Assembly (NCBI GenBank): GCA_002753495.1 | Contig: PEAJ01000005.1 | Coordinates: 1-37,615 of the forward strand | Reading direction: 5' to 3' | Length of the DNA: 37,615 nucleotides | Origin: Magnetococcales bacterium HA3dbin3 | GTDB lineage: Bacteria; Pseudomonadota; Magnetococcia; Magnetococcales; DC0425bin3 | Shown here: positions 2,413 to 37,361 of the stretch, in pieces | Numbering within the stretch: the stretch's first letter is position 1 | How the letters are laid out: each line of letters begins with the position of its first letter | Translations under genes and position numbers: made by a program | The notes under the pieces: generated by a model | The model's database searches: none | Told to the model about the DNA's origin: nothing | Seen by the model: only the letters and a program-made list of their open reading frames with translations

Positions 2413-4576
2413 CCCCTGGCACACCCCCCGCGAACTCGCCGGCCTGCCTGGGCTGCCGGGGACTATTCGCGGACTGAGTAAGCTGGCGGCGCGCGAAGGC
2501 TGGCCGCGTCGCCCACACGCGGGCCGTGGCGGTGGCTGGGAATACCCGCTCTCCGCCCTGCCGGAAGAGACGCGCGCGGCCTTGCTCGTGCGCACCCTGC
2601 CGCCGGCGGCGCTGCGCGAAGCCGCCCCGGCGGCAGGCTCGGACCATTTTGCTGACGCCGGCAATATGGTCGCGCCGGTGGCAAAAAACGCGCCCATGGG
2701 CGCGTCGTCCGGGGCGCTCATGCCAGCGGCGACAAAACCGGTGCCCGCGCTTGCGCAATTGAAGGATCGGCAGAGGCAAAAAATGGATGCCAGGGTGTTG
2801 ATTTTGCGATATGTAGAGAGTCTGGCTCCGCCGCAAGGGTCGCTGAGCAAGGCTGTCGCCGAGGCGGTGGAGCAGTCGCGCGCCGGGCTGCTGCCGGAAG
2901 TTGTTGCCCGTGCCCTGCCGCTCGCGCTGGGCGAGACGTGGGGCGCGGGCAAACCGCTGTCGGCGCGGACGCTTTTGCGCTGGCATGGCCGGATGCAAAA
3001 GCATGGGGTGGTGGCACTGGCGCCACAATCCCGGGAAAGAACGGCAGAGCCGGAGTGGGCGGCGCGCCTGCTGAGGCTCTATCGCGGCCGGTCGATGCCG
3101 ACCCTGGCGGAGGCGGTGAAAGAGCTTGAGAAGCAAGGCGTTGGCGAGGTCCCTTCGTATAGCCAGGCGCGGCGTTACCTGGCAACGCGCGTCGGCGCGA
3201 TCGAGGCGGTGCGCGGCCGGGTATCCGCGAAGGATTTGCGCGGGATGCTGCCGTTTGTGCGCCGCAATACCGCGATGCTCGCGCCGATGGCGATCCTTAA
3301 CGGCGACGGCCACACCTTCAACTCTTTGGTCGCCCACCCGGATACCGGCAAGCCCTTCGTGCCGGAGGTGACAGATATTTTTGATGTGCGCACACGGCGT
3401 TGGGTTGGCTTTTCTGTTGGGTTTTCCGAGTCTTCCGAGGTGGTGATCGATGCTTTGGGGATGGCGGTGCGCATCGGCGGTGTGCCGGCGGTGTTGCAGT
3501 GGGACCGTGGCCGTGGCGCGAAAAATCTCATGATGGAGGCCCCTATTACCGGGCTTGCCGCGCGCATCGGCTTTGAGATCTACCACCCGGCGCCGCGCAA
3601 CTCGCAGGCCGGCGGCATCGTCGAGCGATCACACCAGACTACCTTGATCGCGGCGGCGAAAAAGTTGCCGACTTTCATCGGCAAGCGCATCCGCGACCCG
3701 GATTTGCGGCGCGAGATGCTGCAAAAGATCAAGGAGGGAAGCGTCCTTCTGCCGACGTGGCAAGAGCTGATTACGCTGATTCAAGAGGCGATGCTCGCCT
3801 ACAACAGCGGCCACGAACATCGCGCGCTGCCACGCATCGCCGACCCGGTGACCGGCCGCAAGCGGCATATGACCCCGAACGAGATGTGGGAGCGGGAGAT
3901 TGCCGAAGGGTGGCGGCCGCTGCTGCTCGATGACGAACAACTTATTCATGAATTCCACCCGGAACGCATTTGTCGCGTGCGACGCGGTGAGGTGACTTTC
4001 TGGAAGATGACCTATTTTTCCAAGGATTTAACCGAGTTTCACCAGAGGGATGTACGGGTGCGCTACGACATCCGCGACGGATCCAAGGTCTGGATTTATT
4101 CCATGGATGGCCGCTTTATCGTCACAGCGGAACGGGATGCCAACAAGCGCCCCTACCTCCACGACAATGCCTTGGAGGCGGGTCAGGAGCGGCGACGCAA
4201 GGCACAAATTGTTCGACTAGATCAAAAACGGGAGGAGATCGAGGCTCGGAGCCGTAAGACCATCGAAGTGCGGCCGCTCACGCCCGAGGAACAGGCTGGG
4301 GTCACCCAGCAGTTGGAGCGCATGGGGGTGATCGAGGGGGAACCGGTTGTGATCGAATCGGAAACCCTCGTGCGCCCGGTATTTTCCGGGCCGCTTGCCG
4401 ACGCCGAATGGGGGAAATGGGTGCTGAAAAACTGGAAAGAGGCGCCAGAGCGCGATCGGGAAGAGTTTTTGACCCGGACGCGGCAGATCAATTTTCGGCT
4501 GTTGATTGGGATCGAAGAAGCGGAGTTGGCCGCGATTCGCGAGGAGTGGGAGCGGCTGAAAGAGCGGGCCGGCTGA
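2405..4576 (+). CDS. A: MuA-like DDE transposase
   Basis: 723 aa with rve-like core (LNGDGHTFNSLV..., VLQWDRGRGAKN..., NSQAGGIVERSHQT) and Mu-type C-terminal region. Confidence 0.95.
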   Translation: MPDPWHTPRELAGLPGLPGTIRGLSKLAAREGWPRRPHAGRGGGWEYPLSALPEETRAALLVRTLPPAALREAAPAAGSDHFADAGNMVAPVAKNAPMGASSGALMPAATKPVPALAQLKDRQRQKMDARVLILRYVESLAPPQGSLSKAVAEAVEQSRAGLLPEVVARALPLALGETWGAGKPLSARTLLRWHGRMQKHGVVALAPQSRERTAEPEWAARLLRLYRGRSMPTLAEAVKELEKQGVGEVPSYSQARRYLATRVGAIEAVRGRVSAKDLRGMLPFVRRNTAMLAPMAILNGDGHTFNSLVAHPDTGKPFVPEVTDIFDVRTRRWVGFSVGFSESSEVVIDALGMAVRIGGVPAVLQWDRGRGAKNLMMEAPITGLAARIGFEIYHPAPRNSQAGGIVERSHQTTLIAAAKKLPTFIGKRIRDPDLRREMLQKIKEGSVLLPTWQELITLIQEAMLAYNSGHEHRALPRIADPVTGRKRHMTPNEMWEREIAEGWRPLLLDDEQLIHEFHPERICRVRRGEVTFWKMTYFSKDLTEFHQRDVRVRYDIRDGSKVWIYSMDGRFIVTAERDANKRPYLHDNALEAGQERRRKAQIVRLDQKREEIEARSRKTIEVRPLTPEEQAGVTQQLERMGVIEGEPVVIESETLVRPVFSGPLADAEWGKWVLKNWKEAPERDREEFLTRTRQINFRLLIGIEEAELAAIREEWERLKERAG

Positions 4577-7350: not shown

Positions 7351-7870
7351 GTCGGTGAAAGTGAAGGGAGAGGCGGAAAAGGTGCCGGTCCCGCAAACAC
7401 GGGAGGCGGTCGTTGAAGCGATTTCGCTGATTGGTCACTTGCAGCGCGAGCGCACAGTGATTGAGGCGGAGATGAACGAGCGGCTGGCGGCGATCAAGGA
7501 GGAGTATGAGAAAAAAGCCGGACCGATGGCCGAGGAGATTCGCGAGCTTCATCGCGGCGTGCAGGTGTGGTGCGAAGCCAATCGCGCCGCGCTGACCGAA
7601 GGCGGGCGCATCAAGACCTGCGCTCTGGCATCCGGGGAAATCTCCTGGCGGCTGCGGCCGCCGCGCGTGGCGGTAAAAGCAGTTGATTTTGTAATCGATC
7701 TGCTTGAAAGCAAAGGGCTTGCGCGCCTGGTGCGCCTCAAAAAGGAGATCAACAAGGAGGCGATCCTGGCCGACCCGGACGCGATCGCCGGGGTGAAAGG
7801 GCTTTCGATCACCCAAGGCGAGGATTTTGTGATCAAACCGTTCGAGAGCGAACTGGAATCGGTGATGTGA
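7343..7870 (+). CDS. gam: Mu Gam-like host-nuclease inhibitor
   Basis: 175 aa coiled-coil protein with SGEISWRLRPPRVAV and ITQGEDFVIKPFESELE; conserved locus position. Confidence 0.85.
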   Translation: MGKSVKVKGEAEKVPVPQTREAVVEAISLIGHLQRERTVIEAEMNERLAAIKEEYEKKAGPMAEEIRELHRGVQVWCEANRAALTEGGRIKTCALASGEISWRLRPPRVAVKAVDFVIDLLESKGLARLVRLKKEINKEAILADPDAIAGVKGLSITQGEDFVIKPFESELESVM

Positions 7871-7946
7871 TGCGAAACCGGGGCTTTTGTGCCCTGGTCG
7901 CCAGGCGGTGGTGCGCCTGGCCTGATGAGCAGCCAAAGGAGGTTTT

Positions 7947-33990: not shown

Positions 33991-34632
33991 ATGGGCGCCG
34001 CCCACAGGATCGACCAGAAAATCACCGCCTGGGAGGTGGCTAGCGGTGCCGGCGCGGTGCCGGCAGTCCCCCCGGCGCCAGAGCCGCCGCCCGCGCACGC
34101 TGTGCGCGCCATCCGGAGGCCGGAGGTGCTCCAGGGCGAGACCTACAAGATCCGCGACCCGCTCTCGGATCACGCCTACTACATCACGATCAACGACATC
34201 CCCCTGCCCGACGGCCGGAGATGGCCGCGCGAAATCTTCATCAACTCCAAGTGCATGGAAAACTTCGCCTGGATTGTCGCCCTGACGCGCGTCATCTCGG
34301 CCGTCTTCCGCGCGACCGAGGACGTGGCCTTTCTGGCCGAAGAGCTGCGCTCGGTGTTCGACCCGCGCGGCGGCTATTTCAAGCCCGGCGGCAAGTACAT
34401 GCCAAGCCTGGTGGCGGACATCGGCGCGTGCCTGGAGCAGCACCTGGTGAGCATCGGCGTGCTGCAAAAAGAGGCGCTGCCGCCGGAGGTGACAGCCAAG
34501 GCGGCGACAATCGTCGCGTCGCAAGATACGGAAAAGAAAGGCAAACTGTGCTCAAAATGCAACCAGTTTGCCGTCGTGCGACTGGATGGGTGTGAGACGT
34601 GCGTGGAGTGCGGGTGGTCGAAGTGTGGGTGA
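33991..34632 (+). CDS. NrdJb/TSCPD-like protein with C-terminal RNR-type zinc ribbon
   Basis: RRPEVLQGETYKIRDPLSDHAYYITINDIPLPDGRRWPREIFINSKCMENFAWIVALTRVISAVFRATEDVAFLAEELRSVFDPRGG...PSLVADIGACLEQHL; CSKCNQFAVVRLDGCETCVECGWSKCG. Confidence 0.8.
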   Translation: MGAAHRIDQKITAWEVASGAGAVPAVPPAPEPPPAHAVRAIRRPEVLQGETYKIRDPLSDHAYYITINDIPLPDGRRWPREIFINSKCMENFAWIVALTRVISAVFRATEDVAFLAEELRSVFDPRGGYFKPGGKYMPSLVADIGACLEQHLVSIGVLQKEALPPEVTAKAATIVASQDTEKKGKLCSKCNQFAVVRLDGCETCVECGWSKCG

Positions 34633-34675: not shown

Positions 34676-35197
34676 CTACCTGACCAGCCGGATGCGGCCG
34701 TCCGGCCGCACTGTCGCTACGACCCTGACCCCCGCCGCCGCCAGCTCTTGATCGTACAGTCCGATACAGTCGGTCCGTACGACGGCCCCGCAAAAGAGCC
34801 GAGAGCGATCGAGCACCACCTCAGCATGCGTGATCGTCTCACCCTGGCGGTGCATGTAGCGCCGATAGCCGGCGATCGCCGACCATAGGCCGGTGGCGCT
34901 CTGGTACCGGCGTGGCCGGCGCCAACGCTTTGCCACCTGGCGGCCGGTGGTGGTCGGGTCCACCTCCGACCACGCGTCCGTCACGTAGCCGGAGACGAGA
35001 CACCCGGATACGTCGGGGATGACCAGCCCGATCGGGGCCGGTCCCAGCTGTAGGAGGGTCTTGCAGCCGATGATCGGCTCCGCCGACACGTCGCGGTGCC
35101 GACCGAGCTCCCAGGCCAGCATCTGGCCCAGGTCCGTATGCCGGCCTCTGAAAAGGCCGAGCCACCTGATGGCGGGGTATGAACCCAAAAACTTCAT
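34676..35197 (-). CDS. Hypothetical accessory protein
   Basis: 173 aa minus ORF; AT-rich GGTATAAAATTTTTTGGGGAG upstream. Confidence 0.6.
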   Translation of the reverse strand: MKFLGSYPAIRWLGLFRGRHTDLGQMLAWELGRHRDVSAEPIIGCKTLLQLGPAPIGLVIPDVSGCLVSGYVTDAWSEVDPTTTGRQVAKRWRRPRRYQSATGLWSAIAGYRRYMHRQGETITHAEVVLDRSRLFCGAVVRTDCIGLYDQELAAAGVRVVATVRPDGRIRLVR

Positions 35198-35388: not shown

Positions 35389-35418
35389 TTGACATGCGAG
35401 GGCGAGGCGCGGCATCCT
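35389..35418 (+). promoter_or_regulatory. Putative promoter for the small-RNA locus (TTGACA, weak CATCCT -10)
   Basis: TTGACA 35389-35394; CATCCT 35413-35418 at 18-bp spacing. Confidence 0.3.
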
Positions 35419-35500
35419 GTTGCCCAGGCCGGATGTCGCGCGCCGAATGTCCAAGCTACGGCTAAATAAGCGCGGCCCCCACGGGTTTGGAGCATCCGGC

Positions 35501-35585
35501 CATCCCTCCGCAGGCGCGGAGATAGACCGGATGGTTTTTATTCTGCCAACGGCAACAGTTCCCCCGCAGACGCGGGGAAAGTGAC
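35501..35585 (+). CRISPR. Two degenerate type I-E CRISPR-repeat-like units (35501-35529 and 35557-35585) separated by 27 nt
   Basis: Unit 1 CATCCCTCCGCAGGCGCGGAGATAGACCG; unit 2 AGTTCCCCCGCAGACGCGGGGAAAGTGAC; both 6-bp stem/4-nt loop hairpins. Confidence 0.45.
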
Positions 35586-35587
35586 GG

Positions 35588-35620
35588 GCCCCCACAGGAA
35601 ACTTTGGGGGCTTGTTTTTT
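35588..35620 (+). terminator. Rho-independent terminator downstream of the CRISPR-like hairpins
   Basis: GCCCCCA-(10 nt)-TGGGGGC then TTGTTTTTT. Confidence 0.8.
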
Positions 35621-35693: not shown

Positions 35694-35702
35694 GGTTGGA
35701 GG

Positions 35703-35875
35703 TCAGTCGACCTCTTTGATGATGAGGTCCGATGAGTCTGCCACCGAGTCCATCGCCTCGATGGTGTCATACCCAGCATCCCGGGCGTAGGCCAGGAGCG
35801 CGCGATTTCTTTCGTCTCTCCCTCGTACACGCCCATGATCACGCCGGCGGTGCTCTCAATCTGAAACTTTTTCAT
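35703..35875 (-). pseudogene. Small accessory gene broken by an apparent 1-nt deletion
   Basis: MKKFQIESTAGVIMGVYEGETKEIA[R] then, one frame off, LLAYARDAGYDTIEAMDSVADSSDLIIKEVD-stop; 173 nt. Confidence 0.7.
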
Positions 35876-35880
35876 TTTGG

Positions 35881-35990
35881 TTTCCTTTCGGATTGTGCCG
35901 TCCGGGCCATCCCCGGCGGCGATGGTTCTTACTATACGGAAATTCGTTCCGTATAGTAAATAGAAAAAATGAGGAGATGCGATTTTTTTT
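35881..35990 (-). promoter_or_regulatory. Leader copy A: palindromic operator/promoter plus GC-rich stem-loop
   Basis: TTACTATACGGAA-ATTCG-TTCCGTATAGTAA (35929-35959), TTACTA-17-TATAGT on minus strand. Confidence 0.75.
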
Positions 35991-37251: not shown

Positions 37252-37361
37252 TTTCCTTTCGGACTGTGCCGTCCGGGCCATCCCCGGCGGCGATGATTCT
37301 TACTATACGGAAATCTGTGCCGGATAGCAAATGGAAAAAAATGAGAGGATGCGATTTTTTT
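37252..37361 (-). promoter_or_regulatory. Leader copy B (near-duplicate of 35881-35990)
   Basis: Long near-identical stretch including CCGTCCGGGCCATCCCCGGCGGCGATG and TTCTTACTATACGGAAAT. Confidence 0.75.

Follow-up and report, generated by a model that had tools for sequence, protein, structure and literature searches.

A Mu-like phage in a Magnetococcales genome carries a degenerate two-repeat type I-E element which, judging from its sequence, probably makes one crRNA-like RNA that would act as a decoy capturing Cas6e or Cascade; we put the probability of this reading at roughly 55%. The window, by which we mean the whole stretch of DNA analysed, is the complete contig G000:C238 (37,615 bases) within a 2.9-Mb MAG that is 77% complete. 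It encodes a Mu-like phage, with transposase, DNA transposition protein and portal, in agreement with the phage context that a first-pass annotation had proposed for the locus.

The locus and its predicted RNA

The features of the locus are given below, with the units scored against the CRISPR repeat of G002, a genome that shares its genus with the window's MAG.

35389..35394, + strand: TTGACA element, with no matching -10
35407..35446, + strand: very stable 11-bp inverted repeat (-24.4 kcal/mol), within the presumed leader or transcript of the locus
35493..35540, + strand: outer stem CATCCGG/CCGGATG around unit 1, then GTTTTTATT (fold -24.1 kcal/mol, z -2.6)
35501..35528(9), + strand: unit 1 (psiR1-like), degenerate I-E repeat, 23/28; stem 35506-35511/35516-35521, loop AGGC, intact handle ATAGACC at 35522-35528
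35522..35577, + strand: predicted Cas6e product, a 56-nt crRNA-like RNA (handle, guide and 3' hairpin), as expected if I-E processing cuts both stems at their 3' base
35529..35556, + strand: guide or spacer, 28 nt, against 33 in host arrays
35557..35584(5), + strand: unit 2 (psiR2-like), degenerate I-E repeat, 22/28; stem 35562-35567/35572-35577 and 5' half intact, handle lost (AAAGTGA)
35588..35620, + strand: strong hairpin resembling a terminator, with a T-run, downstream of unit 2, by fold and sequence

Two units with a 6-bp stem and a 4-nt loop had already been placed here, and both stems prove to be perfect; unit 1 folded alone reaches -11 kcal/mol. Unit 2 is identical to the G002 repeat at positions 2-13 and 15-22, and its loop, AGAC, is present too in one G002 array repeat. 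The units follow one another with a period of 56 nt, compared with 61 in host arrays. Where an 8-nt handle, ATAGACCG, had been read, we retain the 7-nt host handle ATAGACC, whereas the eighth base belongs to the spacer side; base 29 varies in host arrays. The 7-bp outer stem around unit 1 is absent from the earlier annotation. The extended unit-1 hairpin is possibly a weak terminator, as modelled by folding, and transcripts stopping at this outer stem might give a solitary-unit RNA, with longer ones giving the crRNA mimic.

In type I-E systems, Cas6e cleaves after each repeat stem. A short transcript of the locus would thus be cut by the host Cas6e after each stem, releasing the handle, the 28-nt guide and a hairpin, and the layout of these three parts supports the crRNA-mimic anatomy first proposed for it. 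Such an RNA would bind Cas5e, Cas7e and Cas6e, and a shortened or target-less Cascade would perhaps be built on it. The handle-bearing decoy would then compete with the host's own crRNAs, as a putative RNA anti-CRISPR.

On one side of the locus a diverging neighbour gene (34676-35197, - strand) starts at 35197, and on the other a converging small reading frame runs from about 35877 on the - strand; lying alone between them, the locus therefore needs a promoter of its own. The proposal that it forms its own transcription unit holds as far as this gene layout goes. The TTGACA element is present and a strong terminator follows, but no sigma-70 promoter pair was recognised at the locus. The small frame (about 35700-35877, - strand) starts MKKFQIESTAGVIMGVYEGETKE... 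and has an apparent 1-nt frameshift around 35810; the other frame would end ...LIIKEVD at about 35704.

Several further elements of the window were recorded alongside. An 89-nt direct repeat (91%) at 35881-35969 and 37252-37340 lies upstream of two reading frames on the minus strand; both copies contain an inverted repeat, that of the first copy being TTACTATACGGAA-N5-TTCCGTATAGTAA, and the pair looks like a shared promoter/operator for a phage regulator. The 213-aa product of 33991-34632 (+ strand) combines a TSCPD domain with zinc-ribbon-like cysteines at its C-terminus, a ribonucleotide-reductase-like tail. Between two early genes of the phage, at 7870-7938 (+ strand), sits a Type II hammerhead ribozyme, which scores 58.9 bits with Rfam model RF02276, whose gathering score is 37.

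The parent repeat and the CRISPR that this kind of phage meets

In genome G002, GGTTCCCCCGCAGGCGCGGGGATAGACC is present in more than 450 copies separated by 33-nt spacers, and this repeat is identical to the parent repeat that had been rebuilt from the two units alone. A host-clade I-E repeat near the implied consensus, named beforehand as the thing to seek, was thus found as an exact match, bearing out the earlier view that the units stem from a type I-E repeat. The I-E cas genes adjoining one of the G002 arrays comprise Cas3, Cse1, Cse2, Cas7, Cas5 and a Cas6e-type match. Another genome of the order (contig G035:C39, = L108) has the same repeat in use; in G001, the other genome of the genus, the repeat differs from that of G002 in two loop bases. 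G002 itself holds two separate I-E-type cas loci (L012 and L013), and in L013 the array begins immediately where a reading frame with a weak Cas6e-type match ends.

The two units are the two best matches to the G002 repeat in the whole window (23/28 and 22/28), while in 200 dinucleotide-preserving shuffles no score exceeded 21, a value that three of them attained; over the full length, their identity to the repeat is 79-82%. When the locus was compared by blastn with 48 Magnetococcales genomes, with no repeat supplied, it recovered host CRISPR arrays, the best being those of G002 (E 5e-8). Among 13 compared repeats, that of G002 is the nearest to both units, tied with one other for unit 2. Both units are genuine descendants of a type I-E CRISPR repeat. 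The possibility that a host leader had been carried along into the phage was rejected, the blastn match covering the repeat part only.

A G002 I-E spacer matches the transposase gene of the phage over its full length, with an intact seed:

3500..3532, + strand: protospacer within the transposase gene of the phage; match 29/33, perfect over the first 8 nt, with CAG on its 5' flank

This kind of phage therefore meets this CRISPR, and related Mu-like prophages are matched by other Magnetococcales spacers. From the host spacer matches, an AR PAM was deduced. One spacer of the G002:C101 array (L227) is 100% identical to L092 2260-2292 (G002:C7), just upstream of G002's own Mu-like transposase gene; the 5' flank there is TC, unlike the AR PAM at the other matches. 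Because no Cas1, Cas6e or CRISPR array was found in the window's own MAG, which at 77% completeness gives weak negative evidence, the active target system is deduced from the genus.

No second phage with exactly this locus was found, so that conservation is judged from one copy. The search yielded no relatives of the portal protein in genome contigs, none of the 173-aa neighbour in IMG/VR, no exact unit-2 core in IMG/VR and no locus DNA in GenBank phages, and the unit-1 stem with its handle is in no other Magnetococcales genome. Within the order, relatives of the transposase (at most 48% identity) and of a tail-region protein (about 30%) are too distant, or lie on contigs that end before the matching region; the stretches retrieved from relatives hold no unit above 19/28.

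Wear of the repeats and competing explanations

The substitutions are unevenly placed. Unit 1 has changed at repeat positions 1, 2, 4, 7 and 20; the last two are pairing partners and represent a compensatory C-G to U-A exchange. Unit 2 has changed at position 1, at position 14 in the loop and at four of the handle's seven positions. The 28 repeat positions kept by the mature crRNA contain two of the 11 substitutions (P = 0.02). When the same number of changes was placed at random, both stems remained fully paired in 0.9% of trials, and both stems were paired with the unit 1 handle also intact in 0.08%. The wear is thus non-random, sparing the parts needed to excise one mature crRNA, and it points to selection on a crRNA-like product, as modest evidence from tests on one locus.

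One rival view is that the locus is a captured piece of host CRISPR array decaying without function, which we regard as unlikely. Terminal repeats of host arrays decay too, as at the end of the L227 array, and the GCGGAG of unit 1 is already carried by one G002 repeat, but the compensatory pair and the intact stems and handle would seldom arise by random wear (0.08% of trials, as above), the period is shortened and no leader-like sequence lies alongside. It is more improbable still, to the point of being hardly credible, that two ordinary terminator hairpins resemble repeats by chance: a T-run does follow the outer stem of unit 1, and a terminator comes immediately after unit 2, but adjacent 22-23/28 matches to a same-genus repeat were unreached in 200 shuffles, and the handle, which lies outside the stem, matches as well.

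The main rival to the decoy is a working guide, since a 28-nt guide might retain some targeting. Host Cascade would here be given a crRNA against a rival mobile element, as in a viral mini-array, or against a host or phage promoter, as in CreA/CreR-like repression; we consider this possible, if rather doubtful. The retention of the psiR1 handle and the loss of the psiR2 handle are as in CreA guide RNAs (PMC9458426), and CreR autorepression has been reported for type I-E (PMC13131331). In type I-B, shortening the guide abolishes interference first and priming next, while binding and repression persist, and 24-nt guides still repress transcription (PMC10989794). Against this stands the lack of a target: no site at three or fewer mismatches besides the guide itself in the 48 Magnetococcales genomes, no exact 22-nt guide match in IMG/VR and, within the window, neither a second guide match (self-targeting) nor a guide seed with an AR PAM. 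Seed matches in the cas loci L011-L013 yielded nothing convincing, the best ones looking like chance, and the 3' part of the guide is able to pair with itself in the fold. A 12-nt guide match in the MAG was discarded; it is the sole seed match that the genus offers beyond the phage itself, and it lies inside an acetyl-CoA synthetase-like ORF without an AR PAM. A target in an unsampled phage is possible. The short guide and the lack of a detected target support the earlier preference for a decoy over a working array.

Known repeat mimics and short-guide chains in other phages

The closest described families are Racr, CreA/CreR and the viral mini-arrays. Racr RNAs are repeat mimics that titrate Cas6 or Cas7; in the case of RacrIF1, Cas6f and Cas7f bind a product that lacks a handle, and Cascade assembly is thereby blocked (PMC10651486). 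Like RacrIF1 and RacrIE1/2 (PMC10651486), the window locus is an intergenic phage mimic of a host repeat that keeps the Cas6 stem and likely titrates Cas proteins. The published Racr kind, which the first-pass annotation had brought up alongside viral mini-arrays, is a solitary unit with at least 90% identity, whereas the window has two adjacent units, 56 nt apart and with a guide between them, at 79-82% identity (23/28 and 22/28 over the full length), and its RNA would carry the 5' handle that the active RacrIF1 product lacks. Its repeat matches in subtype the CRISPR of same-genus G002, the window's own MAG showing none.

Cheng et al. described CreA RNAs in which psiR1 keeps the Cas5-binding nucleotides and psiR2 loses them (PMC9458426). 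The window units follow the CreA/CreR (CreTA; PMC9458426) pattern, with two degenerate repeats, the psiR1 handle kept, the psiR2 handle lost and one guide. CreA and CreR were reported, however, as host CRISPR-Cas-linked modules with a partial promoter match, whereas the window locus is borne by a Mu-like phage contig with no linked cas genes, in a MAG without a Cas1 or Cas6e match, and no promoter match was found, either as a seed with an AR PAM in the window or as anything convincing in L011-L013. A CreTA with its target on the phage was accordingly dropped, there being no seed with an AR PAM. The mini-arrays of the archaeal viruses SPV1 and SPV2 have repeats identical to those of the host and spacers against related viruses (reviewed in PMC11656645). 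They likewise place one guide between two virus-borne repeats with no cas genes, whereas the repeats of the window are worn rather than identical to the host's, and its guide is short (28 versus 33 nt) and matches no virus. The locus is thus a real, unusual, repeat-derived phage element, its function being deduced, and for every named family at least one of the features tested here falls outside the definition.

Pattern scans of IMG/VR for an I-E hairpin plus handle identified at least 11 other phage contigs with short-period chains of 2-5 units, where the background rate in those contigs predicts 0.5 neighbours. Their periods range from 36 to 58, mostly 48-53, and their guides are often about 20 nt, which is about two 6-nt Cas7 steps short.

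L117, L124, L146 and L162: period 49
L253: period 48-49, four times in a row
L141: four consecutive periods of 49-50, the stems co-varying
L153, L156 and L182: period 50-53
L149: period 58
L178: period 36
L244, in addition to these eleven: period about 48, directly after TATAAT, at the contig end

Both guides of L153 begin GTAACGGT. The L182 units immediately precede a terminator and gene junction common to P22-like Salmonella phages, which have no units there, and they are thus a cassette, present in one phage and missing in others. L070/L090 and L077 are one-spacer pairs with the normal period of 61 and the second handle lost. Of 41 chains comprising 2-5 units, 12 have a badly worn last handle and one a badly worn first handle; this count is biased because the search pattern demanded one intact handle, and it should be read knowing that terminal repeats of ordinary arrays wear too. 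The matches L247-L249, L251, L252, L243, L245 and L246 have no paired I-E hairpins and were set aside. Solitary I-E units with an ATAGACC handle also occur in phage contigs (L091 2188, L089 5390 and L073 8995) and are ordinary Racr candidates; that of L091 contains GGTTCCCCCGCAGGCGCGGGGATAGACC, as in G002, and stands before a terminator.

No report of short-guide phage chains was found in the literature covered, which excludes most subscription papers and preprints. Published searches for solitary repeats miss such chains because the SRUFinder rules, at least 90% repeat identity and no partial repeat within 100 bp, discard such pairs by design. We tentatively suggest, while holding the idea to be somewhat less than an even bet, that degenerate I-E repeat chains form a widespread class of phage RNA anti-CRISPRs, so far unreported, to which the window locus would belong. 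Guides in this class would measure roughly 10-30 nt, with a cluster near 20 nt, and the handle-bearing decoy crRNAs would trap Cascade subunits in undersized, target-less complexes. If this is true, phages would go beyond copying single repeats and make complete counterfeit crRNAs whose guides are unusually short, and RNA anti-CRISPRs would be undercounted, their loci hidden by the SRUFinder rules.
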